NCBI GenBank assembly: GCA_951812975.1
Contig: CATOTC010000001.1
Location: forward strand, 1,644,001 to 1,708,000
Direction: 5' to 3'
Length of the DNA: 64,000 bases
From: an uncultured Acidimicrobiales bacterium
GTDB lineage: Bacteria > Actinomycetota > Acidimicrobiia > Acidimicrobiales > Aldehydirespiratoraceae
Every line of letters begins with the position of its first letter. Within the stretch, counting starts at the first letter, position 1. Of the stretch, positions 29,859 through 61,266 are shown one piece after another. The notes beneath the pieces were generated by a model. The model did not search any database, was not told the origin of the DNA, and saw only the letters and a list, made by a program, of their open reading frames with translations. A program made the translations under genes and the position numbers.

Positions 29859-29861
29859 GCG

Positions 29862-29950
29862 CGGAGACGGTGGGATTCGAACCCACGAACGCCTTGCGAC
29901 GTTACTTCCTTAGCAGGGAAGCGCCTTCAACCTGGCTCGGCCACGTCTCC
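29862..29950 (-). tRNA. tRNA-Ser (anticodon GCT)
   Basis: GGAGACGTGGCCGAGCCAGGTTGAAGGCGCTTCCCTGCTAAGGAAGTAACGTCGCAAGGCGTTCGTGGGTTCGAATCCCACCGTCTCCG: 7-bp acceptor stem, long variable arm, GTTCGAATCC T-loop, CTGCTAA anticodon loop. Confidence 0.95.
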
Positions 29951-37234: not shown

Positions 37235-37253
37235 ACGGCCGGCGGGTAGACCG

Positions 37254-39263: not shown

Positions 39264-39267
39264 AACC

Positions 39268-42683: not shown

Positions 42684-43490
42684 TCAGGCGTCCTTGACGT
42701 CGACGAACAGGTCGCGTTTGCGGAACGCCGCGGTCATGAACCGGGCGAAAGCCTTGCGACGGGTGAGCCACACCACGCGGGCGCCGGACTTGTCGGCGGC
42801 GAGGATGTGGTCGGCCAGCCAGGGGGTGACGGTGTGGACCTTGTCGCCGAGAATGTTGAAGATCTTCTTGGACTTCTCCCACTGTTCTGAGGTGAGGTCG
42901 TAGTCGCCGGTGAGCAGGTCGGTCACGACGATCCCCGGCGAGACAGTGCAGATCTGCACAGCAGTGTCGGCGGTGTCTTTGCGCAGGGCCTTCTGCAGGT
43001 AGCGCACCGCACGCTTGGTCGCGCCGTAGGCCGCCATGCCGGGTTGTGTGGCGCCGTCGGACCCGAACCCCTCGGTGTTCCAGACCTGCCCGTGGTCCTG
43101 GCGCACCATGTTGGAGACCGCGGTCTTGCTGGCCAGCAGCGTGCCCGTGAGGTTGGTGTCGACCAGCGCGGCAAGTTCATCGTCGCTCTGTTCCCACAGA
43201 GGTTCACGCCCGATGCTGACCCCGGCGTTGTTGATCCATATGTCGACCCCGCCGAAAGCCTCTGCGGCGTGGTCCCACAGTTCTTGGAGCTGTCCGGGGT
43301 CGGTGATGTCGCAGGCCCTGCCACAGACCTTGGACTCCCCGTAGTACTCGCCGAGTTCAGCCACCACCGCCGCCACGCTTCCGGCTGAGCGTCCACTGAC
43401 GGCCACCTGGCATTGGCGCTTCAGGAACTCGCGGGCCAATCCGTTGCCGATCCCCCTGGTGCTCCCCGTGATCACGATGCGCTTGCCCAT
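42684..43490 (-). CDS. SDR-family reductase resembling chlorophyll b reductase (NYC1/NOL)
   Basis: ITGSTRGIGNGLAREFLKRQ...VDIWINNAGVS...FGSDGATQPGMAAYGATKRAVRYLQKAL...TVSPGIVVTDLLTGDYD...KKIFNILGDKVHTVTPWLADHI. The GSTRGIG, DIWINNAG, GSDG, AAYGATKR and SPGxVxTDLL strings resemble plant NYC1/NOL as recalled. Confidence 0.8.
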   Translation of the reverse strand: MGKRIVITGSTRGIGNGLAREFLKRQCQVAVSGRSAGSVAAVVAELGEYYGESKVCGRACDITDPGQLQELWDHAAEAFGGVDIWINNAGVSIGREPLWEQSDDELAALVDTNLTGTLLASKTAVSNMVRQDHGQVWNTEGFGSDGATQPGMAAYGATKRAVRYLQKALRKDTADTAVQICTVSPGIVVTDLLTGDYDLTSEQWEKSKKIFNILGDKVHTVTPWLADHILAADKSGARVVWLTRRKAFARFMTAAFRKRDLFVDVKDA

Positions 43491-43529: not shown

Positions 43530-44492
43530 TCAGCGCCGTCTCCAGTGGTTCACCAGACGGTGCTCGACGAGGTGCTCCAGAGTGGTGGTCGCCGTCCGCC
43601 CCAGGCTTGTGGCGACGAAAGCGGCGATGAGGTCGCCGAGCAGTGCCCGGACTGCGGGATCGGCATTGACAGGATCAACCTCGAGGAAGGTACGGCCGCT
43701 GGTGGTGTCAAGCGGCCAACAGATTGCGAAATGGCCCGCGTCGGTCAACTCGACCAGCCATGAGTCTCCGTGGTCGCGTGCGATGCCCTCGTCGAAGGTT
43801 CGCCTGATGGGGTCGTGGACCGCGTCGTGCGTGGTTGAGCGGTAGCGGTCGCTGCTTGCTGCGATGACCCCGTCGGCAGTCCCTGCCAGCAGCATCACCG
43901 GCACTTCGGCGGGTGCTGCCACCACAGCACTCTCGCCGTGTCCCAGGGTGGCAGCGGTCATGGTGTGCGCGCCGTAGGTGAACACCGCTTTCAGGCCCGG
44001 TACCCAGGCCGGGTCGCTGTTGTGCAGCGCCACGGTGCCACCGGCTGAGTGGCCTCCGAGGACCACACTGCCGAGGTCCAACAGCCCGGTTACGGGGCTG
44101 TCGTCGTGCCCGGCGCCGTTGAGACGGTTCAGCAGCGGTTCGAGAACCGTGGACGAAGGCCGGGTGCCGATCGTGTCGGGGAGCAGCGCGGTCATGTCGA
44201 TGCCGGGGGTGATGCCCCGGCCCGCAGGCCCGAGCGATCCGACAGCGGTGTAGGTCACCACGCAGATTCCGTCGGCCACGAGTCGGTAGGCGAGCCAGCG
44301 GTATCCGTCCGGGGTCACGTTGATCCCCGGCATCATCACCACAACCGGCCAGGGATCGGGCGTTTGGATCGGCGGGACGCGCCCCGTCAACCGAGCTTCT
44401 GTGAACCGTTGATCGTCGCCGGGGTAGTACAACGTGCCCACCGCTGCGTCTTCGTCGGCCTCAAACGCGAAGTGCCACCCGCGAACGATCAT
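43530..44492 (-). CDS. Alpha/beta hydrolase (chlorophyllase/dienelactone-hydrolase-like)
   Basis: VVVMMPGINVTPDGYRWLAYRLVADGICVVTY; nucleophile elbow LGGHSAGGTVAL; AGHF. Confidence 0.75.
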   Translation of the reverse strand: MIVRGWHFAFEADEDAAVGTLYYPGDDQRFTEARLTGRVPPIQTPDPWPVVVMMPGINVTPDGYRWLAYRLVADGICVVTYTAVGSLGPAGRGITPGIDMTALLPDTIGTRPSSTVLEPLLNRLNGAGHDDSPVTGLLDLGSVVLGGHSAGGTVALHNSDPAWVPGLKAVFTYGAHTMTAATLGHGESAVVAAPAEVPVMLLAGTADGVIAASSDRYRSTTHDAVHDPIRRTFDEGIARDHGDSWLVELTDAGHFAICWPLDTTSGRTFLEVDPVNADPAVRALLGDLIAAFVATSLGRTATTTLEHLVEHRLVNHWRRR

Positions 44493-44705: not shown

Positions 44706-44744
44706 CGGTTTCATTAAGTGCTCCGGGGACTCTACGATTGTGCC

Positions 44745-45200
44745 ATGAGCGAACAGAAAAGCTACGGCCCCGCTTCAGACAAGCCCTACCAGTGTTTCAT
44801 GGGGCGCTGGGAGGGGCTGTGCAAGAGCTTCACCCCCGAAGGCGAGTTCCTCGAATCCAGCGCGGTGCACATGGACGTCTACTGGCTCGACGACCACACC
44901 TGGCACCTGCACGAACACTTCGAGAACCTCTACGGAGTAGGGGAGACCATCTTCGACACGCCCATCGGAGTCGAAGGCAGACGGTGCTTCGCCGACAGCG
45001 AACAGATCAGCCTCGAAGGCGCCGAACTCACGCCCTACAACTACGTTTTCACCATCGACAGCAGAGTCAGCAACACGATCGTCTACAACAACCACTACTT
45101 CCTGGATCCCGACACCCGCCGCATCATCACCCACAAAGTGCGTGACGGGAAGACCATCCTGTTCCAGATCCAGGACTTCGCCCGGATCCAACGGCCATGA
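44745..45200 (+). CDS. Lipocalin-like/DUF3598-type protein
   Basis: MGRWEGLCKSFTPEGEFLESSAVHMDVYWLDDHTW...HEHFENLYGVGETIFDTPI; shares layout with CDS 46012 and 47659. Confidence 0.55.
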   Translation: MSEQKSYGPASDKPYQCFMGRWEGLCKSFTPEGEFLESSAVHMDVYWLDDHTWHLHEHFENLYGVGETIFDTPIGVEGRRCFADSEQISLEGAELTPYNYVFTIDSRVSNTIVYNNHYFLDPDTRRIITHKVRDGKTILFQIQDFARIQRP

Positions 45201-46015
45201 TCGTTCAACGAGCCCCCGGCGGGGTTGCTGACGCACCGCACTTCGTGATCGCAATGCATCAGCACACCTCCTTCGCAGGATCGCTCGCCGCGAACTTCGG
45301 CAACGACGACTTCGCCGGGCTGGAACCTGCTGAGCCGATGCAGTTCATCGTCGACCACCACGACCAGGGATGGGCCGACCTGGATGCGGCCGCCCCTCAG
45401 GACCCGGCGACGGGACTGCCATACAACCTCACAGCCACTCCGTTGCCGCAGATCGTCGCCACCTCGGCGGGTTCGCCGGCATTCAACGATGCCCACCATC
45501 CGTTCAGCGGCATCATCTCGTCGATGCACACCTACGGCCTGTATCGGGGACGCTACGGGCTGAGCGACAAGATCTTCCTCGACAGCATCGGCGAAGAGCT
45601 GCGCCCTGAAGTCGATGCCATGCTGGCTGCAGAAGAGGACCGTCAGAGCCGTCTCAAGGAACAGCTGGCGGTGAGCGACCCCGACCATGCAAGCGACGAG
45701 TACCTGTTCCACGCCTACAAGCAGCTCCAGTTCTTCGACACGCTCTCGCTCTACATGCACATGTCCCCCGAGGGCGAGAGAGGCGAATCTGAGTTCCACA
45801 ACGTGCCCCGGGCCGTCGGCGACGATGTGACCGTCTCAGTCGTGGAGCTGCCCGGCGCGGTCTATGCACTGGACCCGTATCCCTTCGCTCCCGATCAACT
45901 CGAATTGGCTACAGAGGGCCGATACCTCGCCCCGCAGCCGGCAGGCACCGACCTCGCCGCGATGCTGGCAACGACGCCGATCGAGGCGCAGACGGTGCAT
46001 CTGGTCCGGGCGTGA
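45197..46015 (+). CDS. DUF3891-like protein
   Basis: HQHTSFAGSLAANFG...MQFIVDHHDQGWADLDAAAPQDPATGLPYNL; ATGA overlap with the upstream gene. Confidence 0.7.
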   Translation: MIVQRAPGGVADAPHFVIAMHQHTSFAGSLAANFGNDDFAGLEPAEPMQFIVDHHDQGWADLDAAAPQDPATGLPYNLTATPLPQIVATSAGSPAFNDAHHPFSGIISSMHTYGLYRGRYGLSDKIFLDSIGEELRPEVDAMLAAEEDRQSRLKEQLAVSDPDHASDEYLFHAYKQLQFFDTLSLYMHMSPEGERGESEFHNVPRAVGDDVTVSVVELPGAVYALDPYPFAPDQLELATEGRYLAPQPAGTDLAAMLATTPIEAQTVHLVRA

Positions 46016-46914
46016 GCAGTGGGTCGTTCTCCCGGGGTGTCGGTGAATGGATCGGCGCTGCTGAGGTTTACGACGCAGAGGGCCGCTTCGCTGGATTGGG
46101 CCGCGACACCCGGTCAGTGCAGGCAGACGACCAGGCCGGGACGGTAACCGTAGAGGTCACCTTCGACGGGCCGTTCTCGCTGTCAGGCGAGTACACGATT
46201 GTTGACCACGGTTCGTATCGGACCTATGAGGGCCCTCTCAACATCGGCTACGCCGAGGCTCTGGGCGACGGCCTGGTAGCGGCTCACAACTACTGGCCGG
46301 ACCTCGGTCTGTCACAGCGGTTCTTTCTGATGGTGATGCCCGACGGGTCACGCCAGTTGTCTCTGGCGTTGCTGAGCCGGGGCGAACAGCTTCGCTGGAC
46401 AGTCGTCGGGGAATATCAGCGCCGACTCGACGAGTCACGCCCGGAACCGCCCCCGCCCGAACCGATGGATCCATCGCAACTGCGAGACGACCCCACAGCG
46501 GGTCGGGGAGAGCTCCTGTTGCTGCGCTCGGGGTGCTGGTCGGGTCGTCTGCAGCGCCTCGATGACGACTGCAAGCCTTCGAATGCGGCCGACTACACCG
46601 AATCGGTTGTCGGCCAGGACGGTTCTTGGGAAGTTGAACTGTCGGGTGCCGACTACTCGTCGGGTCTGTCATTCACCCTGTTGAGCGACGGTTGGACGGC
46701 TTGGACTCCGACCGGCAGCCTGACGGGAAGCGGAATCCTCAGCGGCGGCCGGGGCTTCAGCGGCCAGTTCCACCATCAGGGATCTGGGTTGCGCATGTGG
46801 CGCCGCGAAGCGGCATCGCGAGACGGCACCACCAAAGCGGTACTGCACATCTGGTACCGCGGTGAGGAGCGGCTCGGAGCGGCATACGGCGTCCTGGCCT
46901 TCGATCCGGCATGA
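46012..46914 (+). CDS. DUF3598/lipocalin-like protein
   Basis: GEWIGAAEVYDAEGRFAGLGRDTRSV...NYWPDLGLSQRFFLMVMPDGSRQLSLALLSRGEQLRW; GTGA overlap. Confidence 0.65.
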   Translation: MSSGSFSRGVGEWIGAAEVYDAEGRFAGLGRDTRSVQADDQAGTVTVEVTFDGPFSLSGEYTIVDHGSYRTYEGPLNIGYAEALGDGLVAAHNYWPDLGLSQRFFLMVMPDGSRQLSLALLSRGEQLRWTVVGEYQRRLDESRPEPPPPEPMDPSQLRDDPTAGRGELLLLRSGCWSGRLQRLDDDCKPSNAADYTESVVGQDGSWEVELSGADYSSGLSFTLLSDGWTAWTPTGSLTGSGILSGGRGFSGQFHHQGSGLRMWRREAASRDGTTKAVLHIWYRGEERLGAAYGVLAFDPA

Positions 46915-47645
46915 ACAGTGATCCCGTTAGGACTGGTTCAATGAGTACTGACCCCGTTGGTACTGGCCCAATGGGCACTGGTTACACCAGCGGCGGCGAC
47001 ACGTTCAGTGGGGCCTGGTTGGTGACCGAATACGTCCACGACCCCGACGGCACGTTCCGGGGAACCGTCGCCCAGCGCCGCCGTGTCGAACAGGTCGACG
47101 AGGCGCGCCTGCGGGTGACCCAGCAGTGCGAACCGTCGGCCGCTCTCCACGGCCACGCCATGGCCGCGTTCGCCGGTGAATGGGTGTTCGATCTCGAAGT
47201 GGTCGGCGACCAGCGCCATTATTTGGGCCCCGATGTGGTGGGCTCAGCCACGCAATGGCAACCCGGTGCGATGACCGGGCAGGGCATGTGGCCCCGATTC
47301 GGATACGAGTTCGAGTCCTACAGCGTGCTGGTAGCCCCCGACCGTCAACTCACCGGCGGGTTCTTCTCGCTCGCCGGACGGTCCGTGGCAGACATCGTGG
47401 GAGTGGCCGTCCCCGAAACCGCCGGTATCGAGCCTCGCTTGGACCTGACGGCCCCGCCGCCCGTCGCCGGCGACGAATGGCAACTGCACCGAGCGGTCGG
47501 CCCGCTGCTGGTAGCGACCGCCCGTCCCACGCCGTCACAGCGCCGCCGCCTCTGGACGATGCACGATCCGGCCGGAGCCGCCACAGTCGCCCTTACTGAG
47601 ACTGTCGACGGGGGAGCACGCGCGGTCGCGGTGGCAGTCAGCTGA
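46911..47645 (+). CDS. Lipocalin-like protein of the same cluster
   Basis: FSGAWLVTEYVHDPDGTFRGTVAQRRRVEQVDEARLRV; ATGA overlap with the upstream gene; duplicated N-terminal start repeat. Confidence 0.5.
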   Translation: MNSDPVRTGSMSTDPVGTGPMGTGYTSGGDTFSGAWLVTEYVHDPDGTFRGTVAQRRRVEQVDEARLRVTQQCEPSAALHGHAMAAFAGEWVFDLEVVGDQRHYLGPDVVGSATQWQPGAMTGQGMWPRFGYEFESYSVLVAPDRQLTGGFFSLAGRSVADIVGVAVPETAGIEPRLDLTAPPPVAGDEWQLHRAVGPLLVATARPTPSQRRRLWTMHDPAGAATVALTETVDGGARAVAVAVS

Positions 47646-47658
47646 GCGGCGACATCCC

Positions 47659-48597
47659 CTAGTCCGATGACCAGATGAGAGGGCCGAACACGATGTCGGT
47701 CATGCGGTCACCGGAGTAGAGCTTCCAGGCCACAGCCATCGTGTAGCTGCGGTCGAGGATGAACTCCCGCCCCTTGACCTTGAACGCCTCGCTGGAGTGG
47801 TGCTGCGATGTGTACAGCGCCCGACCGTAGGCGATGGCGTTGCCCCAGAGATCGGGGCCGTCATAGGTGTAGCGGTTGCCGCCCGAGCGGGTCCGGGTGT
47901 AGCTCAACGACCGGTCGAAGGCCCCCGACATGTCCAACGTGCAGTTGGCGCGCACCAAGTCGATGGGGTCGTTGCGCAAGCGCACGTCGACTGAACCCCG
48001 GCGCTGTTGGTCGGCCCCGAACACCTCGCATTGGCCGGTCCATTCGCCACCGACCCGGTCCGGCACGGTGTGCGGCCATGAGGCCAGCTCGCGTTCGGCC
48101 TCGATGTGGCCGTCGATCCACTCCTTGGTATCGGCGTTGGTGTCGTAGTCGTGGGCGTTGAGGTACACCCCGTTGAACACCGAGAAGAGGGTCGGCCCCT
48201 CATACAGCAGCGACGAATAAACCTGGGTCACGCCGTCCGGCAGGATCTGGTTCATGGTGTTGAGATCGGCCCGCCATCCCGGAGAGTAGTAGTGCGAGTC
48301 CACCAGCGACCCGTAGGGATGGCCTGCCCCGTAGAAGTCGGGGCCCCGATAGATGCGGTCGTTGCCCTGGTCGTCTACTCCGAACTCGAAGTCGCGGATC
48401 TCGAAGCGGTTGCGCAGCGGCCCGGTGTTCATGAAGTTGCACTGCATCCAGTAGGTGACCTCGCCGTCGGCGAACACGCTGGCCCGGCTGACCTTGTTGA
48501 ACCCGGTGTGGCTTCCGTCGGCATCGAAGACCGACGGCAGGCCGTACCACTCACCGGTGATGCGCTGTTGCCATTCAGAGGCTTCGGTTTCGCTCAT
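47659..48597 (-). CDS. DUF3598/lipocalin-like protein
   Basis: ITGEWYGLPSVFDADGSHTGFNKVSRASVFADGEVTYWMQCNF...GGEWTGQCEVFGADQQRRGSVDVRL: two lipocalin-like halves. Confidence 0.55.
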   Translation of the reverse strand: MSETEASEWQQRITGEWYGLPSVFDADGSHTGFNKVSRASVFADGEVTYWMQCNFMNTGPLRNRFEIRDFEFGVDDQGNDRIYRGPDFYGAGHPYGSLVDSHYYSPGWRADLNTMNQILPDGVTQVYSSLLYEGPTLFSVFNGVYLNAHDYDTNADTKEWIDGHIEAERELASWPHTVPDRVGGEWTGQCEVFGADQQRRGSVDVRLRNDPIDLVRANCTLDMSGAFDRSLSYTRTRSGGNRYTYDGPDLWGNAIAYGRALYTSQHHSSEAFKVKGREFILDRSYTMAVAWKLYSGDRMTDIVFGPLIWSSD

Positions 48598-48706: not shown

Positions 48707-49426
48707 TCAGGTGCGGGCGGCGGTTTTGAGGCTGGTCTGGATCTCGGTGCTCATCTCTGCACCGAGAAGTTGGTCCACGCGGGCCCACACGGGATCGACC
48801 TCCGGACTGAAGACGGCTTCACGGTTGCGATGGTCACGGCGGTCCAGGTCCTTGGGGGTCGCGCCGCCGAGGGCATCGTCGGGCACACCCTCGCCCACCA
48901 AATCGAGCCAGTGGTCGCGGTAGTGGGCCACGGCACCGAACACGCCCGCGAAGCCCTCCTCATCAGCCCGATGGGCCAGCATCCAAGCCGACATCAGCTG
49001 CCATTGTCGGGGTGACAGGTGCGCCGCGGTGAGCCCGTCCAGTTGCAGGACCGCGTCGTGGGTCTCGGTGAGCGGGCCGTAGCAATGGTCGATGTAGGCC
49101 AGGTTCGCGCCCGGGTCGAGGCGGGGGATCAAATCCAGGTGGAACGCATAGTGGGGACCGGCCAACACTGAGTCCACCGTGAAATGGGGGACCGGGCTGT
49201 GGGGCGGCGTGAAAGCGAAACACATGTGGCTGTCGAGACCGAACGCCTCCACCGTCATGCCGACATAGACCAACTCGGCCACCCCGTCGCGCGACAGCAC
49301 GCGATGGGAACCGACCGACGAACCGTCCAGTGCCGAAACCAGAGGTGTGCTCACAGTTTCGGCCAGGTCGAGGCGATTCTCGATCGCCTCGACGGTCCCG
49401 AGGCACAGATCAGCCGACAGGCTCAT
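48707..49426 (-). CDS. Bilin reductase/red chlorophyll catabolite reductase-like protein (tentative)
   Basis: Internal start MSLSADLCLGTVEAIENRL; PHFTVDSVLAGPHYAFHLDLIPRLDPGANLAYIDHCYGPLTE resembles the 'PxF..D.......LDL.PR.D' core of the ferredoxin-dependent bilin reductase/RCCR group. Confidence 0.5.
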   Translation of the reverse strand: MSLSADLCLGTVEAIENRLDLAETVSTPLVSALDGSSVGSHRVLSRDGVAELVYVGMTVEAFGLDSHMCFAFTPPHSPVPHFTVDSVLAGPHYAFHLDLIPRLDPGANLAYIDHCYGPLTETHDAVLQLDGLTAAHLSPRQWQLMSAWMLAHRADEEGFAGVFGAVAHYRDHWLDLVGEGVPDDALGGATPKDLDRRDHRNREAVFSPEVDPVWARVDQLLGAEMSTEIQTSLKTAART

Positions 49427-49451
49427 CGCTCGCCCCCCACCTGATCGGCCC

Positions 49452-50618
49452 TCATTGGGGGGACCCGGTGCCGGTGTGCGGCGCCGCGGCCTCAGCGACG
49501 GTGGGGAAGACCCAGGCATTGGCCAACTCGGGGTCACCGGCTCGTGCCGGCGAAGGAATGACTGCAGCGGCCCGCATAGCCGTTTCGTCCGAGAGCACTT
49601 CAAGTCCCCAGCCTCTGTTGATCTGCTCGGAGCGCCAGCGACGGTAGGCCAACTGGATCGAATCGGACTTGACATGAAGCTCGGCCGACAGGTCGAAGGG
49701 CAACAGCTCGGGACGCTGCCCCTCCACGGTCGGCTGGTCCTCCAAGAAGATCTTGATCGTGCGCTGCATGGAGTTCTTGTCGGCCCAACCGCCTGTGAAG
49801 AACGTGCGCAGCATGGCGAACTTCGAGACTGTGACGTGCTCGTCGCGGGGGACCGCCGCGGTGAAGATGCGGATCTCGCCCATCGGCAGGCGCACGATCA
49901 GCAGCGACACGTTGGGGGGATAGAAGCCGGTGGTGGTGCTGACCGGGGGGCGGTCCTTCTTGGAGATGAACTTCCACAGACCGGATGGACGGGGAGGCTC
50001 AAGGTCGACTGTGGCAGTCACCGAGGTCAGAAATCCGTCGTTGCGCTCCTCTTGGAGTTCGAACTCCTCGATCTCAGGCTGGTCGGCGTTGCCGAACGAA
50101 CCGGAGTGCACGAACGGTGTGTGGGCGATGTCCACGGCGTTCTCCAATACCCGGTCGTAGTTGGCGTTCCAGGTGAACTCCCCGAATATGGCCCGGTAAC
50201 CCGCCGCTTTGGCCTCGGTGTGCTCTTCGAGCCCGTCGAGCACAGGCACCGGCGGACGCTGCTCGGCAGGAAGGTCACCCAGGAATACCCACACGAAGCC
50301 GTAGCGCTCCACACAGGGGTAGGTGTCGATCCGGGCCTTGCGGGGGATGGGAAGGTCCTGACGGTTCGCCGGGATCTCCACGCACGCACCGTCGGAGCCG
50401 TAGCGCCATCCGTGGTAGGGGCATTGCACACAGTTGCCGACCACTCTGCCCCCAGCCAGTGAACCGCCGCGGTGCACGCAGAGGTCGGACTGGGCATTGA
50501 CGGTTCCATCGGGACTGCGCCACAGCACCAGGTCGTGGCCGTGCACCCGGGCGAGAACGGGTTCAGCAGCGACCTCCGCACCGAATTCGACTGCGTACCA
50601 GTGGTTCTTTATGAACAT
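49452..50618 (-). CDS. Rieske [2Fe-2S] oxygenase, pheophorbide a oxygenase (PaO)-like
   Basis: Rieske CVHRGGSLAGGRVVGNCVQCPYHGWRY; mononuclear Fe site ENAVDIAHTPFVHSGSFG. Confidence 0.82.
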   Translation of the reverse strand: MFIKNHWYAVEFGAEVAAEPVLARVHGHDLVLWRSPDGTVNAQSDLCVHRGGSLAGGRVVGNCVQCPYHGWRYGSDGACVEIPANRQDLPIPRKARIDTYPCVERYGFVWVFLGDLPAEQRPPVPVLDGLEEHTEAKAAGYRAIFGEFTWNANYDRVLENAVDIAHTPFVHSGSFGNADQPEIEEFELQEERNDGFLTSVTATVDLEPPRPSGLWKFISKKDRPPVSTTTGFYPPNVSLLIVRLPMGEIRIFTAAVPRDEHVTVSKFAMLRTFFTGGWADKNSMQRTIKIFLEDQPTVEGQRPELLPFDLSAELHVKSDSIQLAYRRWRSEQINRGWGLEVLSDETAMRAAAVIPSPARAGDPELANAWVFPTVAEAAAPHTGTGSPQ

Positions 50619-50630
50619 GTGATTCTTCCT

Positions 50631-51443
50631 TCAGGCAGGTCTCGGCAGGTGTCGGTCGCCGCCCCACAGGGCCCGCACCAGACGGTCGGTCATCTCCTGG
50701 CCGAAGAACCGTACCGCCATCACGTTGGCCGGGTCTCTTTCGGCGATGGTGCGCCGTCGGGCCAGGTCGTCCGCGGCAAGTTGTGCTCGCCGCCGCTGCG
50801 GCACGGGTTCGGCCTCGTCGACCCATTGCAGCCACTGGTCGACACGGCGGTGGGCGAGTTCGCCCACCTGGTCCAGCCGTGCTTCGTCGTGGGTGCGGTT
50901 CGGGGTGGTGAAGCAGATGGCCACGTCGCTGAGCGCCGCTCGGATGTACAGGGCCCTGGAGGTGAACGGTGCCAGCCCCTCGTCTGCTCGCAGCGCCAGG
51001 AACTCCTCGTTGAGCGGTTCGTAGTACTTGTCCAGCGCTTCGGTGTCGAGCATGAGGTCGGAGCGGGGGTTGTAGTCGATGTAGAACCACAGGTCGGGCA
51101 GGGTTCCCCAGGCGATACCGAGATGTGGCACATCGATATGGGGGCCGAGCCATGCGGTTACGTGCATGTTGGTGAAACCGAGGGGCGGGTTGCCGATCCA
51201 GGAGTGGATCAGCCAGTCTATTTCGGGCCCGCTGTAGGCGGCGAGCCGGCCCGAAGGGTGCTCCATCTCGCCCCGATACGACTCCAGGTCGGCGGTGCTG
51301 GGGTCTCGGGTCAGTTCGAACCGGGCTTCGATCTTGGCCATGACCTCGCAGGTGATCGACCACAGCCGGTCGAAGGTTGCCGTCGCGTCTGTCGGGACTC
51401 GCTCGTCGAAGATGTCTTGGACACCCTTCAACGTCTCGCGCAT
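50631..51443 (-). CDS. Red chlorophyll catabolite reductase (RCCR)-like protein
   Basis: PHIDVPHLGIAWGTLPDLWFYIDYNPRSDLMLDTEALDKYYEPLNEEFLALR...SRALYIRAALSDVAICF resembles the RCCR core (LDL.PRKDL...YYE...LYxRxxxS). Start MRETLKGV at 51443, because the longer track start would cover the palindrome. Confidence 0.6.
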   Translation of the reverse strand: MRETLKGVQDIFDERVPTDATATFDRLWSITCEVMAKIEARFELTRDPSTADLESYRGEMEHPSGRLAAYSGPEIDWLIHSWIGNPPLGFTNMHVTAWLGPHIDVPHLGIAWGTLPDLWFYIDYNPRSDLMLDTEALDKYYEPLNEEFLALRADEGLAPFTSRALYIRAALSDVAICFTTPNRTHDEARLDQVGELAHRRVDQWLQWVDEAEPVPQRRRAQLAADDLARRRTIAERDPANVMAVRFFGQEMTDRLVRALWGGDRHLPRPA

Positions 51444-51490: not shown

Positions 51491-51577
51491 TCGTTTCGTT
51501 CGGCTCGACAGTAGGGCTGAGCGGAGACGAGTGTCAACAATCCACACTGCCGACAACATCAGGGAACTGCCACGACA

Positions 51578-52393
51578 ATGAGCCGCACCACTCTTTACGT
51601 CCCGGGCGACCGGGCTGACCGCTTCGCCAAGGCGCTTGCCTCGGGAGCTGACGCCATCATCTGTGACCTCGAAGACGCGGTTGCCGAAACAGCCAAGGCA
51701 ACGGCCCGTGAAGCAGTCTCGAAGTGGCTGGGGGCCAACTCCGGCGCAGCGGCATGGGTGCGGGTCAACAACCGTCCCGACCTGCTCGAGGACGACGCGG
51801 CCATGGTTCGTTCGCTGGTGGCCGACGGGGTGGATTTCGCGGGGGTGGTGGTTCCCAAGGCCGACAGGACTGTCTGCGCGGTCGACTTCGCGGGCAGCCC
51901 CGTAATGGCCCTCATCGAGTCGGCGGTCGGTGTGAGAGACATCTATGAGATAGCGGCAAATCCCGCGGTAGTGCGTCTGGCTCTGGGAGAGGCCGACCTG
52001 GCCGCCGACATGAGCATGGAACCGTCCGCGGACGCCCTTGAGATGTGGCCGATCCGCACCCGAGTGGTGGTCGCATCGGTCGGCTCCGGACTCAATGCCC
52101 CCTGCGGACCCGTACCCACCGACCTCAACGACGACGAAGCGCTGGTCGCCTCCAGCGAATCGCTGCGCCGCCACGGATTCGGTGGTCGTTCGGTGATCCA
52201 CCCCAAGCAGGTGGAGGCGGTCAACGCAGCATTCACTCCATCAGCCGATTCCATCGCCCACGCGGAGAAGGTCGTGGCAGCTTATGAAGCAGCGGTCGAA
52301 GAAGGTCGCGCAGCACTGGTTCTCGACGGCGAGTTCATCGACACCGCAGTCGTGCGGCAAGCCCGAGCAGTTCTGGCTAGGACGCCGCGCTGA
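51578..52393 (+). CDS. HpcH/HpaI aldolase/citrate lyase beta-type (CitE-like) lyase
   Basis: TLYVPGDRADRFAKALASGADAIICDLEDAV; WVRVNNR; ALIESAVGVRDIYEIAANPAVVRLALGEADLAADM; GRSVIHPKQVE. Confidence 0.9.
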   Translation: MSRTTLYVPGDRADRFAKALASGADAIICDLEDAVAETAKATAREAVSKWLGANSGAAAWVRVNNRPDLLEDDAAMVRSLVADGVDFAGVVVPKADRTVCAVDFAGSPVMALIESAVGVRDIYEIAANPAVVRLALGEADLAADMSMEPSADALEMWPIRTRVVVASVGSGLNAPCGPVPTDLNDDEALVASSESLRRHGFGGRSVIHPKQVEAVNAAFTPSADSIAHAEKVVAAYEAAVEEGRAALVLDGEFIDTAVVRQARAVLARTPR

Positions 52394-54125
52394 ACCTCTC
52401 GCTGAGCACGGCGGAAGCTTGCCAGGGGCGACCTCCTACCAGGTCCGTGTCCTTGGAGACCTCTCGATTCAGTGCTCGACCGGGGTGCAGGGTAGCGATC
52501 AACAACCCGTCCGTTGGTTCGGCCCGAATGGTTGTCGGAGTGTTGATCGTGCCGTCGTAGGCGCTCGATCGCTGAGGGTTCCACAGCGAATCAGCGGGTG
52601 GGTCGAGCAGCACCGCAGCACCCAGCGAACCTGCCGGACCGCATGCCGCGAGGCTCACTCGGTTCTCGGCTGCCCGCTCTACCAGAGCCAGATCGCACTC
52701 CCAGGCGCGTTCAGGCTGCCAACACACCGCAACGATGTGGGCGCCGGCAACAGCTGCCAAACGCACCGCTTCGGGATAGCGGTGATCGTCGGCGACCAGC
52801 ACCGCCAGATCACCGAACGGCGTCCGGTACAGGTCTACGGAATCGCCGAGCCTGGTGACCTGCGGGTAGCGATCACTGCGGTGGATCTGCCGTTGCTCGT
52901 GCACTAGGCCCTGCGCGGACCAGACCCGGCCCCTGTGCTGGGTGTGGCCGTGTTGGTCCTGGTCGCTGTGCTGGGTGTGGCCGTGTTGGTCCTGGTCGCT
53001 GTGCTGGGTGTGGCCGTGTTGGTCCTGGTCGCTGTGCTGGGTGTGGCCTCTGTGTTGGCCCTCACCGTGTTGATCTTCTCCCAGGGCCGTGGTCACCACC
53101 AGGACCCCCTCGGGGATAACGGGCGGTACCGGTGTCAGCTCCGGCAAGATCACCAGCGATGCCCCCGAATCGAAGGCCTCGTCGATGAGTTCTGGATTGG
53201 TTCGGGCCCCAGGCACGCAGGCAACCCGCACCTCGTTGGCCAACCCGGAGACCGGCTGAACCGTATCGGCTTGCGCCAGCGGGGCGTACACCTTCGGGCG
53301 GCGCCCTGAGAGTCGCCCAGGATCAACATCGGAAAGGTCGACGTCGGCGATGACCACGGCCTCACCGGTCAGGGGCGCGATGGCCAACACCGTGCCGTCA
53401 GGACCGACGATCTGGCTCTCCCCGGCGCCGTTGAGAGTCTCGGGCGGCACGCCGAGCGCCTCGCTGAAGGCGCCCACTCGGTCGGGGGGCAACAGCGGGC
53501 CGACCTTGTTGGCAGCCACCACAAACACTCCGTTCTCGGCGGCTCGCACCGGAATGTGCAGTGCGGCCTCGTCCCGGGCGAACGAGTTGAGGTTGTTCAT
53601 CAACAGTCGGGCGCCCCGCACCGCCAGTGTGCGCGGTATCTCGAAGGTCACGCCGTCCATGCAGGAATACAGGCCGACGGGGCCGAAGCGGGTGTCGGTC
53701 ACGGGGTTCGCCCCTACACCGGCGCTCAGGAAGGCCCGTTCGTTGCCCATGAGCATCTGCTTGTCGGCAGTGGCTGCCAGGTTGCCGTCGGGGTCGAACA
53801 ACACTCCGGTCACAGTCACCCGATCATCGGGCTGGGGCATCGTCACGGCCAATGCGGCGTAGACGCCGTGCTCAGCGACCCGCCGAGCAAAAGCCTGCAT
53901 CCAGGGACCGTCTGCTGTTACAGCAACCGAGCGGCAGTGGGCGACGTCGTCGTAGACCGAGATGTGGTTGCAGAACTCGGGCAGCACCACGACCTCAGCG
54001 CCCTCAGAAGCGGCCGCATCGAGCATCCGCAGGCAGGTGCCCAGGTTCTCGTCGAGGTCACAGCCCGTGGCGAACTGTACTGCCGCCACGCTCAAGCGGT
54101 CCGTCACCACAGGCGGTTCAGGCAT
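52377..54125 (-). CDS. Double nitrilase-superfamily (carbon-nitrogen hydrolase) protein; C-terminal half lacks a recognisable triad
   Basis: First half has E (VVLPEFCNH), K (ADKQMLMGNE), C (LYSCMDGVTFE); second half has LPELTPV but VADDHRYPE at the expected Cys region. Confidence 0.78.
   Translation of the reverse strand: MPEPPVVTDRLSVAAVQFATGCDLDENLGTCLRMLDAAASEGAEVVVLPEFCNHISVYDDVAHCRSVAVTADGPWMQAFARRVAEHGVYAALAVTMPQPDDRVTVTGVLFDPDGNLAATADKQMLMGNERAFLSAGVGANPVTDTRFGPVGLYSCMDGVTFEIPRTLAVRGARLLMNNLNSFARDEAALHIPVRAAENGVFVVAANKVGPLLPPDRVGAFSEALGVPPETLNGAGESQIVGPDGTVLAIAPLTGEAVVIADVDLSDVDPGRLSGRRPKVYAPLAQADTVQPVSGLANEVRVACVPGARTNPELIDEAFDSGASLVILPELTPVPPVIPEGVLVVTTALGEDQHGEGQHRGHTQHSDQDQHGHTQHSDQDQHGHTQHSDQDQHGHTQHRGRVWSAQGLVHEQRQIHRSDRYPQVTRLGDSVDLYRTPFGDLAVLVADDHRYPEAVRLAAVAGAHIVAVCWQPERAWECDLALVERAAENRVSLAACGPAGSLGAAVLLDPPADSLWNPQRSSAYDGTINTPTTIRAEPTDGLLIATLHPGRALNREVSKDTDLVGGRPWQASAVLSERFSAAS
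52935..53047. repeat. In-frame 33-bp tandem repeat (three full copies plus a partial), encoding HTQHSDQDQHG
   Basis: gtgctgggtgtggccgtgttggtcctggtcgct at 52935, 52968 and 53001, plus a partial copy. Confidence 0.95.
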
Positions 54126-54218: not shown

Positions 54219-55001
54219 TCAGTTGACAGGGCGGGCTCCGAGCTTTGTGGACAGCGCGCGGGTTACCTCCACCACCGCAGCGGCGGAGCTCGCGATCTCG
54301 TCGCGGAAACGCTCGATCGGCCCGCTGACGCTGATCACCGCGACAGGCGCCTGGTTGTGGTCGAGTATCGGTGCGGCAACCGAGCCCGCGTCGTGCTGAC
54401 GCTCACCGAGCGAGACTGCAAAGCCCTGCTGGCGCACACGTCCCAGTTCGGCGCGCAGCTCGTCGACAGTGACGATGGTGGCCTCAGTCATGGCGTCGAG
54501 TGAGTTCTCGGCCAGATAGAGGTCAATCTCGCCTTCGCTGAGCCAAGCCAGGAACGCTTTGGACGAAGCACCGGCATGCAGCGGGAACGACCCGCCGATC
54601 GGCACGGTCATCTTCACCTCACGCGGAGGAGTGATCTGGGCAACGTAGACGCGCCGGTTGCCGTGGCGCACCGACAGAGTCGCCGTCTCCTCGGTGGCGG
54701 CGCTGAGTCTGCGCATCTCGTCGAGGGCCAGGGTCCGAATGTCGAGCTGATCCCGGTAGGCGGTGGCCAACTCGAGCACCGCGGGCCCGAGTGCGTAGCG
54801 CCGGGTCTCCGGGTCGGTGGTCAGAAGGTCGCGTTCACGCAGCGAGGTGAGAATCCGATGCACCACCGCCTTGGACACGCCGAGCTCCTTGGAGATCTCG
54901 GTGACACCGAGGCTTCTCTGTGATCTGGCGAACAGGAACAGCACGTCAGCGGCCCGCTCGATAGCGGCAACGCTGCGGCTGGTGCCCGTGACTGAGTCCA
55001 T
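54219..55001 (-). CDS. IclR-family transcriptional regulator
   Basis: AAIERAADVLFLFARSQRSLGVTEISKELGVSKAVVHRILTSLRERDLL wHTH; C-terminal SVAAPILDHNQAPVAVISVSGPIERF. Confidence 0.95.
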   Translation of the reverse strand: MDSVTGTSRSVAAIERAADVLFLFARSQRSLGVTEISKELGVSKAVVHRILTSLRERDLLTTDPETRRYALGPAVLELATAYRDQLDIRTLALDEMRRLSAATEETATLSVRHGNRRVYVAQITPPREVKMTVPIGGSFPLHAGASSKAFLAWLSEGEIDLYLAENSLDAMTEATIVTVDELRAELGRVRQQGFAVSLGERQHDAGSVAAPILDHNQAPVAVISVSGPIERFRDEIASSAAAVVEVTRALSTKLGARPVN

Positions 55002-55010
55002 TGATTCTGC

Positions 55011-55029
55011 TGTTCCGCTCAGAGGAATG
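55011..55029. promoter_or_regulatory. Palindromic operator-like site, copy 5 (TGTTCCGCTCAGAGGAATG)
   Basis: 10 bp upstream of the iclR start; spacer GCTCAGA identical to the site at 44687. Confidence 0.7.
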
Positions 55030-55113
55030 AGGTTAGCGGATGTTCGCTGGTGAGGCCCATGCGCGCTGGGAACGGTTGCCAACATACATATCTTTGCGGA
55101 ACACTAGGGCCGA

Positions 55114-55132
55114 TGTTCCCCTGGGAGAAACA
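55114..55132. promoter_or_regulatory. Palindromic operator-like site, copy 6 (TGTTCCCCTGGGAGAAACA)
   Basis: 6-N7-6 palindrome just upstream of CDS 55142, with extra half-sites GCGGAACA (55096) and GTTCCGC (55135). Confidence 0.6.
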
Positions 55133-55141
55133 ACGTTCCGC

Positions 55142-56332
55142 ATGAGTGGGCCTCTATCCGACCTGCGTGTCCTCGATGCCTCCACCGTGATCGCAGGGCC
55201 GATGATAGGCCAGATCATGGCCGACTTCGGCGCGGACGTTATCAAGATCGAGCATCCGCAGACAGGCGACAGCATGCGAGGACACGGCACGCAGAAGGAC
55301 GGTCACGGCCTCTGGTGGAAGCTCGTGGCGCGCAACAAGCGCTGCGTGGGGCTGAACCTGAACCACCCCGACGGCGCCGAAGTGTTCCTGAACCTCGTAG
55401 CCGACTCTGATGTGGTCATCGAGAACTTCCGGCCCGGCACCCTGGAGCGCTGGGGCCTGGGCCCCGAAGTACTGTCGGAGCGCAACCCCGGGCTGATTCT
55501 CTGCCGAGTCACCGGGTTCGGACAGACCGGCCCCTATGCCGCCCGCCCGGCGTTCGGGACCTTGATCGAAGCCATGAGCGGATTCGCTCACATGACCGGC
55601 GAATCCGACCGGCCCCCCACGCTGCCCCCCTTCGGACTCGCCGACAGCTTCGCGGGCGTCAGCGGAGTCGCCGCGGTGATGATGGCGCTGCACCATCGCC
55701 ACGCCACCGGGGAAGGACAGACGGTCGACCTGTCAATCCTCGAACCGCTCGTCGCCGCGCTCGGACCCCACATCATCACCTGGGACCAGACCGGCCGGGT
55801 CTCCCAGCGCAGCGGCAACCGCTCGCTGAACAACGCGCCCCGCAACACCTACCTCACCGCCGACGGCCGCTGGGTGGCAGTGTCGAGCAGTACCGACGCA
55901 GTCGCACGGCGAACAATCGAACTGGTGGGCCGGGGCGATCTGGCATGTGAAGGCTGGTTCGCCACCGGTGCCGGCCGGGCAGCCCACACCGACGAGATCG
56001 ACGATGCCATGGCCGCATGGATCGGTCAACGCAAGCTCGACGAAGTCGTTGAAGCGTTCGCGGGGGCCGATGTGGCACTCGCTCCGGTGTACGACGTGGA
56101 GCAGTACGTCGCTGATCCGCAGGTGCAGGCGCGCCGGGCGGTGGTCTCGGTGGAAGACCCCGACCTGGGTCCGCTGCAGATGCAGAACGTCCTTTTCAGC
56201 CTGTCCGCCACACCCGGCGAGATCCGGCATCCAGGACGGACCCTGGGCGCGGACACCGATGAGGTGCTCGCCGATGCGGGGGTCAGCGCCGAGCAGATCG
56301 CGGATCTGCGGGAGCGGGGAGTGATCGCATGA
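55142..56332 (+). CDS. CaiB/BaiF CoA-transferase family protein
   Basis: LSDLRVLDASTVIAGPMIGQIMADFGADVIKIEHPQTGDSMRG; ENFRPGTLERWGLG; start MSGPLSD at 55142. Confidence 0.93.
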   Translation: MSGPLSDLRVLDASTVIAGPMIGQIMADFGADVIKIEHPQTGDSMRGHGTQKDGHGLWWKLVARNKRCVGLNLNHPDGAEVFLNLVADSDVVIENFRPGTLERWGLGPEVLSERNPGLILCRVTGFGQTGPYAARPAFGTLIEAMSGFAHMTGESDRPPTLPPFGLADSFAGVSGVAAVMMALHHRHATGEGQTVDLSILEPLVAALGPHIITWDQTGRVSQRSGNRSLNNAPRNTYLTADGRWVAVSSSTDAVARRTIELVGRGDLACEGWFATGAGRAAHTDEIDDAMAAWIGQRKLDEVVEAFAGADVALAPVYDVEQYVADPQVQARRAVVSVEDPDLGPLQMQNVLFSLSATPGEIRHPGRTLGADTDEVLADAGVSAEQIADLRERGVIA

Positions 56333-57177: not shown

Positions 57178-58599
57178 ATGAGCCCGGTCGTTACGCAACT
57201 GGCGGAACTGGCTTGCGCCCCGGTGCCCGAAACCGTCCGAGCCGGCATCTGTTCGCGCATCATCGACATCGTGGGTATCGCCGTGCGGGCCTCGACGCTG
57301 GAGACCTCCCAAGCTGTCATCGGGTTCGCCGTCGATCAGGACTCCGCTGCCCAGGCCACCGCGATCGGTGCTCCACGGCCCGTCTCAGCAGCCGAAGCCG
57401 CCTTCGTCAACGGGGTACTGGCCCACTCACTGGACTACGACGACACGCATCTGCCGTCGATCCTGCACCCCAGCGCACCGGTGGTGCCCGCAGCGCTGGC
57501 GGTGGCTGAGTGGCAGTCGGCATCAGGCGCATCCCTGCTCGATGCCGTAGCGGTTGGCCTGGAGACAACCGTGCGCCTCGGCATGGGCGGATACGACCCC
57601 CAGGCCCGCCAGTCGGTGTACTTCGAAAGAGGTCAACACGCCACCTCCATTTGCGGCGCGGTGGGCTCGGCCGCCGCCGCCGGCCGTCTGCTGGATCTGG
57701 GCCGCGACGGGATCGCCCACGCCATGGGGATCGCCTGCAGCATGGCCAGCGGGATCATCGAAGCGAACCGGGCCGGCGGGACGGTGAAACGGCTCCACTG
57801 CGGCTGGGCCGCCCGGGCCGGGGTCACCGCGGCTCAGCTCGCGGCGCGCGGCATTACCGGACCTCCGACCGCTATCGAAGGCCGGTTCGGGCTGTTCCAG
57901 GCGTTCTTGGGCGACCAGTCCAACCTCGACTCGGTCACCGCCCATCTGTCAGACCGCTGGCATTGCGATGACATCTTCTACAAGCCGTATCCGGCGAACC
58001 ACTTCACCCACACCGGAATCGATGCCGCCATGGCCCTGCGCCGCCGAGGAGTGTGTGCTTCAGACCTCGCAAGCGCCACGCTGGAAGTGGCACCGCCGAC
58101 CGTGCGCACGATCGGCGAGCCGATTGAGGCCAAACGGATGCCCGAATCCGGATATCACGCCCAGTTCAGCGGCCCGTACACGGTGGTCGCCGGTCTGCTC
58201 GGTGGTGGAGGCCTCGGGGTCGGTTTGGCTGATTTCTCCGACGCACAAGCCTGCGACTCCCGTCGGCGGGAGTTGATGGCCCGGGTCGAGGTGGTGGGCG
58301 ATCCTCAGCTGATGCAGATATATCCGTGTCAGCTTCCGGCTCGTTTGCGGGTTACGACCACGGACGGTCAGACGCTGGTGGAGGAAGTCCTCACCAACCG
58401 CGGTGGACCGGACCGGCCACTGTCAGCGTCGGAGCTGGCAGCCAAGTACACCGACAACACCGCCGGTCTGTTGCCGAACGAAGTCGCCGCCAGACTACAC
58501 GAGACCCTGTCTGGGTTGGCCAGATGCGCCTCCACGGCCGGACTGCTGGTGCCGTTGCAAGCAATCACCACCCAAACACCAGCCGAGGGCTGCCCATGA
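57178..58599 (+). CDS. MmgE/PrpD family protein
   Basis: FVNGVLAHSLDYDDTHLPSILHPSAPVVPAALAVAE; KPYPANHFTHTGIDAAMALR. Confidence 0.92.
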   Translation: MSPVVTQLAELACAPVPETVRAGICSRIIDIVGIAVRASTLETSQAVIGFAVDQDSAAQATAIGAPRPVSAAEAAFVNGVLAHSLDYDDTHLPSILHPSAPVVPAALAVAEWQSASGASLLDAVAVGLETTVRLGMGGYDPQARQSVYFERGQHATSICGAVGSAAAAGRLLDLGRDGIAHAMGIACSMASGIIEANRAGGTVKRLHCGWAARAGVTAAQLAARGITGPPTAIEGRFGLFQAFLGDQSNLDSVTAHLSDRWHCDDIFYKPYPANHFTHTGIDAAMALRRRGVCASDLASATLEVAPPTVRTIGEPIEAKRMPESGYHAQFSGPYTVVAGLLGGGGLGVGLADFSDAQACDSRRRELMARVEVVGDPQLMQIYPCQLPARLRVTTTDGQTLVEEVLTNRGGPDRPLSASELAAKYTDNTAGLLPNEVAARLHETLSGLARCASTAGLLVPLQAITTQTPAEGCP

Positions 58600-58739
58600 C
58601 CGAACTGGCAATCACCGGTCCCACCGTGCTCCGTCAGGACACAGGCGAGGCCGGCCTCGTCGATACTGGCTCGACCGCCGAACTTTCGGCACGGTTCGCC
58701 CGTCTGAAAAGAACTCACCTGCCAGAGGTACGCTCATGA
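58596..58739 (+). pseudogene. Truncated duplicate of the start of the downstream imidase gene (47-aa ORF)
   Basis: MTELAITGPTVLRQDTGEA... vs MTELIITGATVVRPDAGVA... at 58736; TGA overlaps the downstream ATG (ATGA). Confidence 0.6.
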
Positions 58740-60357: not shown

Positions 60358-61266
60358 TCAGTGGGGGAAACCGCCGGCTTTGGCGACCAGGCTGGGCACG
60401 CCGTGGCCGAGTTGGGTTTCCAGCCAGGTGCTAGCATCGATCAGGGCGTCGAGGTCCAGGCCCGTGTCATAGCCCATCCCATGCACCAGATAAACGACAT
60501 CTTCGGTGGCCACGTTGCCGGTGGCTCTCGGGGCGAACGGACAGCCGCCTACTCCGCCGAGGCTGGAGTCGAAAATTCGCACACCCTCGTCGATGGCGGC
60601 GGCGATGTTGGCCAAAGCAGTGTTGCGGGTGTTGTGGAAGTGTCCACGCAGGGCGATCCCGGGAGCCCGCTGCGCCACCCCGGCGAACAGGGCGCCGACC
60701 TGTGTGGGCACGCCCGCACCGATCGTGTCGGCGAGTGCCAACTCGTCGGGCTGCGTGTCGGCCAGATCAGACACGATGTCGAGCACCCTGCCAGAATCGA
60801 CCCTCCCCTCATAGGGACATCCGCAGACAGCCGAGACTGTCACCGCGGTCTTGATACCAGCCGCACGGGCGGCGTCGCTGATGGCACGCCAGCGCTGCAC
60901 CGATTCAGCGATCGTGGCCCGCTGGTTGGCTTGGGAGAAGGTCTCGCTGGCGACGACCACGCCGCAGACCTCGTCGACACCAGCGGCGATTGCTCGCTGC
61001 ACACCCCGCGCATTGAGCGCCAGGGCGCTGTAACTCACACCGCTGGATCGGGGTACGCCAGCCATGACCGCGTCTCCGTCGGCCATTTTCGGCACCGCTG
61101 CGGGGTTAACGAAGCTGGCGGCCTCGATGCGGCAGTGACCTGCAGCGATCAGCCGCTCGATGAGATCGACCTTCTGTGCCGTGCTGAGATCGGCTGGGTC
61201 GGCCTGCAAACCATCGCGGGGGGCAACCTCGACGATCTGGATGGACTCGGTCACACAGCCGAGCAT
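60358..61266 (-). CDS. Hydroxymethylglutaryl-CoA lyase-like (HMGL/DRE-TIM) protein
   Basis: IQIVEVAPRDGLQADP; EAASFVNPAAVPKMAD; GHFHNTRNTALANI; FDSSLGGVGGCPFAPRATGNVATEDVVYL. Confidence 0.92.
   Translation of the reverse strand: MLGCVTESIQIVEVAPRDGLQADPADLSTAQKVDLIERLIAAGHCRIEAASFVNPAAVPKMADGDAVMAGVPRSSGVSYSALALNARGVQRAIAAGVDEVCGVVVASETFSQANQRATIAESVQRWRAISDAARAAGIKTAVTVSAVCGCPYEGRVDSGRVLDIVSDLADTQPDELALADTIGAGVPTQVGALFAGVAQRAPGIALRGHFHNTRNTALANIAAAIDEGVRIFDSSLGGVGGCPFAPRATGNVATEDVVYLVHGMGYDTGLDLDALIDASTWLETQLGHGVPSLVAKAGGFPH

Follow-up and report, generated by a model that had tools for sequence, protein, structure and literature searches.

The DNA analysed here (the window) is a stretch of 64,000 nucleotides from an uncultured Acidimicrobiales bacterium (assembly GCA_951812975.1, contig CATOTC010000001.1, positions 1,644,001 to 1,708,000 of the forward strand). 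It contains a trio of minus-strand genes that, in transcription order, encode RlpA, a 270-residue protein resembling red chlorophyll catabolite (RCC) reductase (50631–51443), a Rieske non-heme iron oxygenase of the VanA_C type (49452–50618), and RlpB, a divergent 239-residue protein with a predicted bilin-reductase fold (48707–49426). A conserved gene at 47659–48597 follows the trio; 12 nucleotides separate the end of RlpA at 50631 from the Rieske gene, and 25 separate the Rieske gene from RlpB. The names RlpA and RlpB, and the LIPO labels used below, were coined in this analysis. An earlier reading of the sequence alone (the original prediction) had described a PaO-like Rieske oxygenase flanked by two proteins that resemble RCC reductase or bilin reductases and diverge from each other. 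Both open reading frames (ORFs) are present on the minus strand, one on each side of the Rieske gene, and the end given for the upstream gene, 51443, is the ATG kept in relatives, inside a longer ORF that begins at 51491. The ORF of RlpB extends to 49675, into the Rieske gene; the ATG conserved in its relatives lies at 49426, and for this reason the gene is taken to span 48707–49426.

RlpA matches the Pfam family RCC_reductase (PF06405) with an E-value of 5.7e-17 and 62.2 bits against a curated cut-off of 24.9, and it retrieves the Arabidopsis RCC reductase (AtRCCR) from the PDB at 8.8e-9 as a single sequence and 2.1e-21 as a profile. Compared with solved structures, the RlpA profile scores 79.6 bits for plant RCC reductase, 39.8 for PebB and 22.8 for HY2. 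The structural model of RlpA (predicted local distance difference test score, pLDDT, of 91, with residues 1–16 low) has the alpha/beta/alpha bilin-reductase fold, with Z scores of 23–24.5 to PebB, HY2 and RCC reductase. The superpositions on PebB (Z 24.5, root-mean-square deviation 2.6, 240 residues aligned) and on RCC reductase 3agb_B (Z 23.5, deviation 2.7, 239 aligned) count as tied, as do all structural matches lying within one Z unit of each other.

RlpB has no counterpart in family databases: no Pfam family is matched at E 0.1 or at E 10, and no NCBIfam model. A profile of 53 RlpB relatives searched against solved structures finds AtRCCR at 3.4e-4 and phytochromobilin synthase HY2 at 0.0072, and the next match is unrelated at 1.5. 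The best Foldseek match of its model (pLDDT 96.4) is RCC reductase 2zxk at 1.4e-11, and alignment with VIA-align gives Z 23.1 on PebB (deviation 2.8, 227 residues) and Z 22.5 on RCC reductase 2zxk_A (deviation 2.9, 233 residues). By predicted fold and by profile, RlpB is a member of the bilin-reductase superfamily. The two models thus bear out the original prediction that divergent members of this superfamily flank the oxygenase, and neither fold is unrelated to bilin reductase.

How are the two proteins related to each other? The core that the original prediction read in both sequences is real: RlpA contains PHLGIAW...YIDYNPRSD and RlpB contains PHFTVDS...HLDLIPRLD, and these align with PNFVVEL...ILDLPHRKD of the Arabidopsis RCC reductase. 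This resemblance is not chance, because comparison of the RlpA and RlpB profiles yields an E-value of 1.2e-8 across 224 columns, the RlpB profile finds the RlpA of another genome (G310) at 4.2e-13, and both models adopt the bilin-reductase fold. On these sequence comparisons, RlpA and RlpB are distant, old paralogues. A tree of 49 sequences (27 RlpA, 19 RlpB and three PDB fragments, rooted on the gtPebB and HY2 fragments) places RlpB in a clade of its own with support of 99, recovers RlpA with support of 84, and joins RlpA with plant RCC reductase, represented by one sequence, with support of 89. The old divergence suspected from the sequences is borne out by this topology, in which cyanobacterial sequences fall inside the bacterial RlpA clade.

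The active sites also differ. Alignments were built from 53 of 68 RlpB, 57 of 81 RlpA, 36 of 61 hydrolase and 19 of 60 short-chain dehydrogenase/reductase (SDR) sequences, and the position of AtRCCR Glu154 was located by counting in the PDB alignment with an offset of 43. We take Glu154 and Asp291 of AtRCCR to be the site acids. At the Glu154 position, RlpB has Asp in all 53 sequences, and it keeps Asp where gtPebB has Asp. The 57 RlpA sequences have Ala (52), Val (3), Thr (1) or Glu (1) at the Glu154 position, the single Glu belonging to a cyanobacterium (L092), and the corresponding stretch of the window's RlpA, PHLGIAWGT, contains no acidic residue; the register of RlpA at this position is uncertain because the joint alignment has a one-residue gap there. 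Inspection of the active-site Glu/Asp, proposed as a check with the original prediction, shows the acid kept in RlpB and mostly lost from RlpA. The C-terminal Asp at the Asp291 position is invariant in both (57 of 57 and 53 of 53), and in the joint alignment it sits in a DP motif common to PebB and HY2.

The central gene of the trio encodes a protein with clear Pfam matches to the Rieske (3.7e-21) and VanA_C (4.1e-27) domains. Its CxHx(15-23)CxxH and [ED]Nx2Dx2Hx4H motifs are present in all 67 relatives longer than 300 residues; both iron motifs are general to Rieske oxygenases, so they argue little for a likeness to PaO. The plant proteins PaO, TIC55 and PTC52 are described, in the sections of the source seen, with a C-terminal CxxC and the mononuclear motif ENx2Dx2Hx4H (PMC6530659). 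That CxxC follows the motif in none of the same 67 relatives, the PaO domain (PF08417) is not among the Pfam matches of the window's protein at E<=0.1, and no protein of the window's genome (G000) exceeds the cut-off for it. Membership of the PaO family was for these reasons rejected, and PaO-like is, strictly taken, the wrong label. The first matches of the Rieske profile are SxtDIOX, SxtT, NdmA and dicamba demethylase. By analogy, its place between two relatives of RCC reductase suggests that the enzyme may nonetheless work like PaO.

The gene association extends far beyond this genome. Scanned with the RlpA profile, a collection of species genomes yielded 107 relatives, of which 80 loci were kept (81 regions with the window); since loci were picked by RlpA similarity, the counts of neighbours apply to the surroundings of RlpA genes, and close relatives make up many of the entries. 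The cluster occurs in Acidimicrobiia, Nocardia, Nonomuraea, Actinoplanes, Nocardioides, Chloroflexi and proteobacteria; cultured strains with it include Actinoplanes italicus DSM 43146 (L039) and Nonomuraea thailandensis DSM 46694 (L043). BLAST with the window's proteins finds RlpB in 67 of the 80 loci, the Rieske protein in 69, the product of the 47659 gene in 68, the alpha/beta hydrolase described below in 60 and the SDR in 59; by gene clusters, the Rieske gene is present in 70 of the 81 regions and RlpB in 68. In 66 regions the next gene after the Rieske gene, on the same strand, is RlpB, with a median gap of −3 nucleotides; RlpA immediately precedes the Rieske gene in 25, and in 41 the hydrolase gene stands between the two. 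Nocardia, Nonomuraea, Actinoplanes, Nocardioides and Mumia have the common order RlpA, hydrolase, Rieske, RlpB, 47659-type protein, SDR; in the inspected loci of this order an Amdase-type gene comes after the SDR, and many are preceded by genes for aldehyde dehydrogenase, FAD monooxygenase, acyl-CoA-dehydrogenase-fold protein, flavin reductase or amidase. In the two Anaerolineae loci, the four other conserved genes lie upstream of RlpA.

The evolutionary distances of five cluster proteins correlate at 0.89–0.95 over 56 loci, and for each of the 10 pairs none of 500 permutations reached as high a value. This agrees with co-inheritance, and shared organism phylogeny alone also raises such a correlation. 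RlpA and RlpB occur together in the same 3 of 296 genomes sampled across the phylum, and RlpA in 8 of 61 nearer genomes, both counts including the window's 3.0 Mb genome. The nearest named relative carrying the cluster is an Acidimicrobiia metagenome bin (L016), with an RlpA 94% identical to that of the window. No plasmid copies of RlpA or RlpB were found. The 13 loci lacking RlpB comprise eight from cyanobacteria together with L044, L080, L068, L088 and L095, and the contig of L068 stops inside the Rieske gene. The cyanobacterial loci (L065, L073, L074, L076, L077, L081, L092 and L094) have RlpA with neither RlpB nor a Rieske gene within the fetched flanks, and L065 holds two RlpA-type genes.

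Several conserved genes lie next to the trio. An alpha/beta hydrolase (43530–44492, minus strand), which we propose as a pigment esterase, is found in 61 of 81 regions, and its GHSAGG motif is present in all 59 relatives longer than 290 residues. Chlorophyllase identity was considered for it and rejected: the window's protein has no match to PF07224, and a Nocardia relative reaches 20.2 bits against a cut-off of 26. The SDR (42684–43490, minus strand; Pfam adh_short 1.6e-41; 57 of 81 regions) matches generic SDRs in the PDB, and a stretch NM[DE]GxGS is found in 40 of its 57 relatives longer than 230 residues; the NMEGxGS form of this stretch may resemble plant NOL. The gene directly after RlpB (47659–48597, minus strand; 69 of 81 regions) encodes LIPO312, a conserved protein without family assignment, for which there was no Pfam match to the window's protein and no PDB match to the profile. 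Four plus-strand genes complete this segment: LIPO244, likewise without family assignment (46911–47645; 21 of 81 regions), LIPO300 (46012–46914; 20 of 81), which is distantly similar to LIPO312 (BLAST 2.6e-12 against the LIPO312 relative in L011), a DUF3891 protein (45197–46015; Pfam PF13030 at 7e-34; 20 of 81), and the small conserved protein LIPO160 (44718–45200; 18 of 81), with a sub-threshold match to DUF3598_N at E 0.23. A lipocalin identity for the LIPO proteins was a guess from reading and was dropped, since Pfam, PDB and structure give it no support.

Genes of catabolic type lie on both sides of this segment. Upstream of RlpA are an HpcH/CitE-type C-C lyase whose closest model is RipC of itaconate degradation, below its cut-off (51578–52393, plus strand; 37 of 81 regions), and a double carbon-nitrogen hydrolase of the amidase/nitrilase family (52377–54125, minus strand; Pfam CN_hydrolase 7.7e-51 in two stretches) with relatives in 61 of 80 loci; between its halves, at about 52935–53060, is a tandem repeat rich in His, Gln and Asp (GHTQHSDQDQH units). 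Next come an IclR-family regulator (54219–55085, minus strand; 29 of 81), a family III CoA-transferase (55040–56332, plus strand; 21 of 81), a putative cyclase (PF04199; 56329–57153, plus strand; 17 of 81), an MmgE/PrpD-family dehydratase (57178–58599, plus strand; 19 of 81) and a hydantoinase/allantoinase-like amidohydrolase (58736–60199, plus strand; 15 of 81), a candidate cyclic-imide hydrolase that matches NCBIfam allantoinase at 4.6e-63, under the equivalog cut-off. An HMG-CoA-lyase-like protein (60358–61266, minus strand; 19 of 81), a second family III CoA-transferase (61278–62474, plus strand) and an isochorismatase-family hydrolase (62491–63138, plus strand; 4 of 81) follow. The other flank, all on the plus strand, holds a protein of the arylmalonate decarboxylase/EutA family (30054–30800; Pfam Amdase 1e-16), a family that also includes maleate isomerases and whose sequence cluster is present in 43 of 81 regions; an FAD-binding monooxygenase of aromatic-hydroxylase type (30876–32030; FAD_binding_3 1.9e-57; 37 of 81); an acyl-CoA-dehydrogenase-fold protein that is a candidate flavin monooxygenase (34205–35512; 31 of 81) and whose gene adjoins a flavin reductase gene in L037, L091 and L084; and parts of an importer of the ATP-binding cassette (ABC), branched-chain-amino-acid type (35807–42054), whose membership of the pathway is uncertain.

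What would such a set of genes do? The imide and amide hydrolases, isomerase, CoA-transferases, lyase and IclR regulator around the trio argue for catabolism, and the amidase, hydantoinase-like, cyclase, isochorismatase, Amdase-type, CoA-transferase, dehydratase and C-C lyase genes would be the set expected for opening maleimides or lactams and passing the resulting small acids on to metabolism. We conclude that the trio probably forms the centre of a set of bacterial genes for tetrapyrrole catabolism, the substrate most likely being a breakdown pigment of chlorophyll taken from detritus. A chlorophyll-derived pigment is the best guess because tetrapyrroles are the substrates of the enzymes matched by fold, an esterase is conserved and heme oxygenase is unlinked; a conserved esterase is in keeping with an esterified pigment like chlorophyll and not with heme. 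Starting from the observed folds, homology, conserved co-localisation and active-site differences, we infer the substrate, the reaction order and everything after ring opening as follows. The SDR and the alpha/beta hydrolase would trim side groups (a carbonyl, and a phytyl or methyl ester), and loss of Mg could be spontaneous, as in the pheopigments of detritus. The Rieske enzyme would oxygenate and open the macrocycle, taking the role that PaO has in plants although it is not a PaO itself, and the open-chain red bilin would then be reduced by RlpB and RlpA. Because the active sites of the two reductases differ, the bilin is likely to be reduced twice in succession by two electrons, or with two regiochemistries; the original prediction allowed for two reduction steps or two substrates, and either may hold. 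The flavin monooxygenases would next cleave the reduced bilin into monopyrroles. Maleimide-like pieces would be carried to central metabolites by the amidases, the hydantoinase-like and cyclase-family enzymes, the Amdase-type isomerase, the CoA-transferases and the C-C lyase. The genome carrying these genes has no detected reaction-centre gene (PF00124); this and the conserved catabolic cluster around the trio escaped the original prediction, which was right in its observation of the flanking reductase relatives and whose interpretation is here widened from three genes to a catabolic cluster.

Several observations weigh against a route of this kind. RlpA has no acid at the Glu154 position and therefore may not reduce RCC; the loss is no proof of inactivity, because bilin reductases of the pre-1 group lack Asp105 and one that was tested proved weakly active, as stated in the part of that report consulted (PMC10151467). 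Ring opening is guessed from gene position, since the nearest relatives of the Rieske enzyme (VanA-type proteins and, by profile, SxtDIOX/SxtT and NdmA) include no tetrapyrrole enzyme. The nearest solved relatives of the hydrolase are polyester hydrolases and cutinases, and the match of its family to chlorophyllase stays below threshold. A ferredoxin-like motif, sought by regular expression, occurs in no plausible gene of the cluster, and the downstream genes vary by lineage. The Mg-dechelatase Staygreen (PF12638) was not found in the window's genome; a search of 20 other cluster genomes was also empty, and since its control was silent too, this is no proof of absence there.

The first alternative concerns the substrate: the cluster could degrade heme-derived bilins (biliverdin, bilirubin) or phycobilins, with RlpA and RlpB acting as bilin reductases of the usual kind and the Rieske enzyme hydroxylating or cleaving a linear bilin instead of a macrocycle. 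The fold itself agrees with PebB, PebA, HY2 and PcyA as well as with RCC reductase, the Asp shared by RlpB and gtPebB points the same way, and heme oxygenase (PF01126) is encoded somewhere in 11 of the 20 other cluster genomes, a count that also tells against a chlorophyll-derived substrate. However, the window's genome and the remaining 9 of those 20 contain none, and tblastn with three query heme oxygenases was positive within the fetched flanks at one of the 80 loci, that of cyanobacterium L076 with its lone RlpA. Coupling of the cluster to heme oxygenase, sought in these genomes and loci, was accordingly discarded outside one cyanobacterium. RlpA moreover lies closer to plant RCC reductase than to PebB or HY2, both in profile bits and in the tree, and it is hard to see what the conserved esterase would do to biliverdin. 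A heme-bilin or phycobilin substrate is for these reasons unlikely.

A second alternative is that bilin-reductase-fold proteins were recruited to another large hydrophobic or N-heterocyclic substrate, such as a prodigiosin-like tripyrrole, a humic compound or an alkaloid. The site acid is lost in RlpA, the downstream catabolic genes are generic, and the nearest solved relatives of the Rieske enzyme act on saxitoxin precursors and methylxanthines, all of which would fit. The enzymes matched by fold, however, act on tetrapyrroles (RCC reductase, PebA, PebB, PcyA, PebS, HY2 and coproporphyrinogen oxidase), the sole other close fold matches being plastid FtsHi complex subunits (8xqw, 8xks), and we judge this explanation distinctly improbable. 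Third, the genes could instead build a pigment or chromophore (a bilin serving a photoreceptor or binding protein) amid unrelated neighbours. This has a precedent in the known non-photosynthetic pre-PcyA clusters, which are biosynthetic and carry bilin-binding globins in the excerpt of the report seen (PMC10151467), but is very improbable here, as hydrolases, CoA-transferases, dehydratases, lyases and an IclR regulator make up the conserved neighbourhood, and no V4R or globin family is among the neighbours scanned.

The preferred reading, catabolism of a chlorophyll breakdown pigment, invites comparison with the PaO/phyllobilin pathway of plants. A Rieske oxygenase is there combined with relatives of these reductases, RlpA belongs to the plants' RCC_reductase Pfam family, and the bacterial set of hydrolase, SDR, Rieske enzyme and paired reductases is similar in type to the series by which plants trim side groups, open the macrocycle and reduce the bilin. 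In contrast to the plant pathway, the bacterial Rieske protein is of another subfamily, there are two divergent reductases, and the genes are clustered with catabolic genes of pyrrole type. Plants accumulate phyllobilins, and one article asks, in the portion seen, what becomes of the colourless ones (PMC4950323).

Relatives of these reductases have been noted in bacteria before. A 2009 paper (PMC2716323, seen in part) reported RCC reductase homologues from Nostoc and Anabaena; they are of RlpA's family, and eight of the 80 loci come from cyanobacteria, but these differ in having no Rieske-RlpB pair within the fetched flanks. Bilin-reductase relatives in heterotrophs were reported in 2023 (PMC10151467), and the available part of that study describes, in the pre-PcyA group, superfamily members in non-phototrophs with conserved clusters, some active ones also lacking Asp105, places Candidatus Schekmanbacteria sequences in the RCC reductase outgroup and describes no actinobacterial cluster. 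According to the same part, pre-PcyA clusters hold heme oxygenase, V4R, Fe-S and globin genes, whereas the clusters of RlpA and RlpB hold a Rieske oxygenase and hydrolases. Bacterial Staygreen homologues offer another likeness, being relatives of a chlorophyll-breakdown enzyme in non-photosynthetic bacteria whose native role is given as unknown in the excerpt seen (PMC8531759), but the window's genome differs in yielding none with PF12638. Our literature search, which covered mostly titles and the beginnings of abstracts, with subscription papers and preprints outside it, found no bacterial genes described as cleaving the chlorophyll macrocycle and degrading what results, and no bacterial cluster of RCC reductase with a Rieske gene.

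We tentatively suggest, as somewhat short of probable, a complete and widespread bacterial mineralisation of chlorophyll, with opening by a Rieske enzyme of a subfamily other than PaO, two paralogous reductases in series and a maleimide-type route from the pyrroles to central metabolites, and with plant RCC reductase sharing its origin with these bacterial proteins. Were this true, the cluster would be a marker gene set for chlorophyll mineralisation, the question would become testable in cultured actinomycetes, and the findings would bear on the origin of plant RCC reductase. The breakdown of green-pigment debris is a step in the carbon cycle; chlorophyll turnover is put at about a billion tonnes per year in the part of the source seen (PMC12930011).

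Further features were observed outside these arguments. In Paraferrimonas, a fusion of rubredoxin/rubredoxin reductase type lies between RlpA and the 47659-type gene (L095:9983-13642) and hints at an electron donor. Two proteobacterial cluster genomes share a small protein family (L046:5938-6516 and L095:7259-7804), of which the one member scanned, that of L095, has no Pfam match. At 28648–29950 the window carries a transposase gene with integrase-core domains (rve_3) and a tRNA-Ser(gct) (29861–29950), which border the catabolic genes starting at 30054 on their left and possibly mark an island boundary. Farther left, at 9404–26134, two giant minus-strand genes of 1620 and 3830 codons contain many cadherin and S-layer homology domains and probably encode surface proteins; several antisense ORFs of equal length (189 residues) hint at internal repeats.

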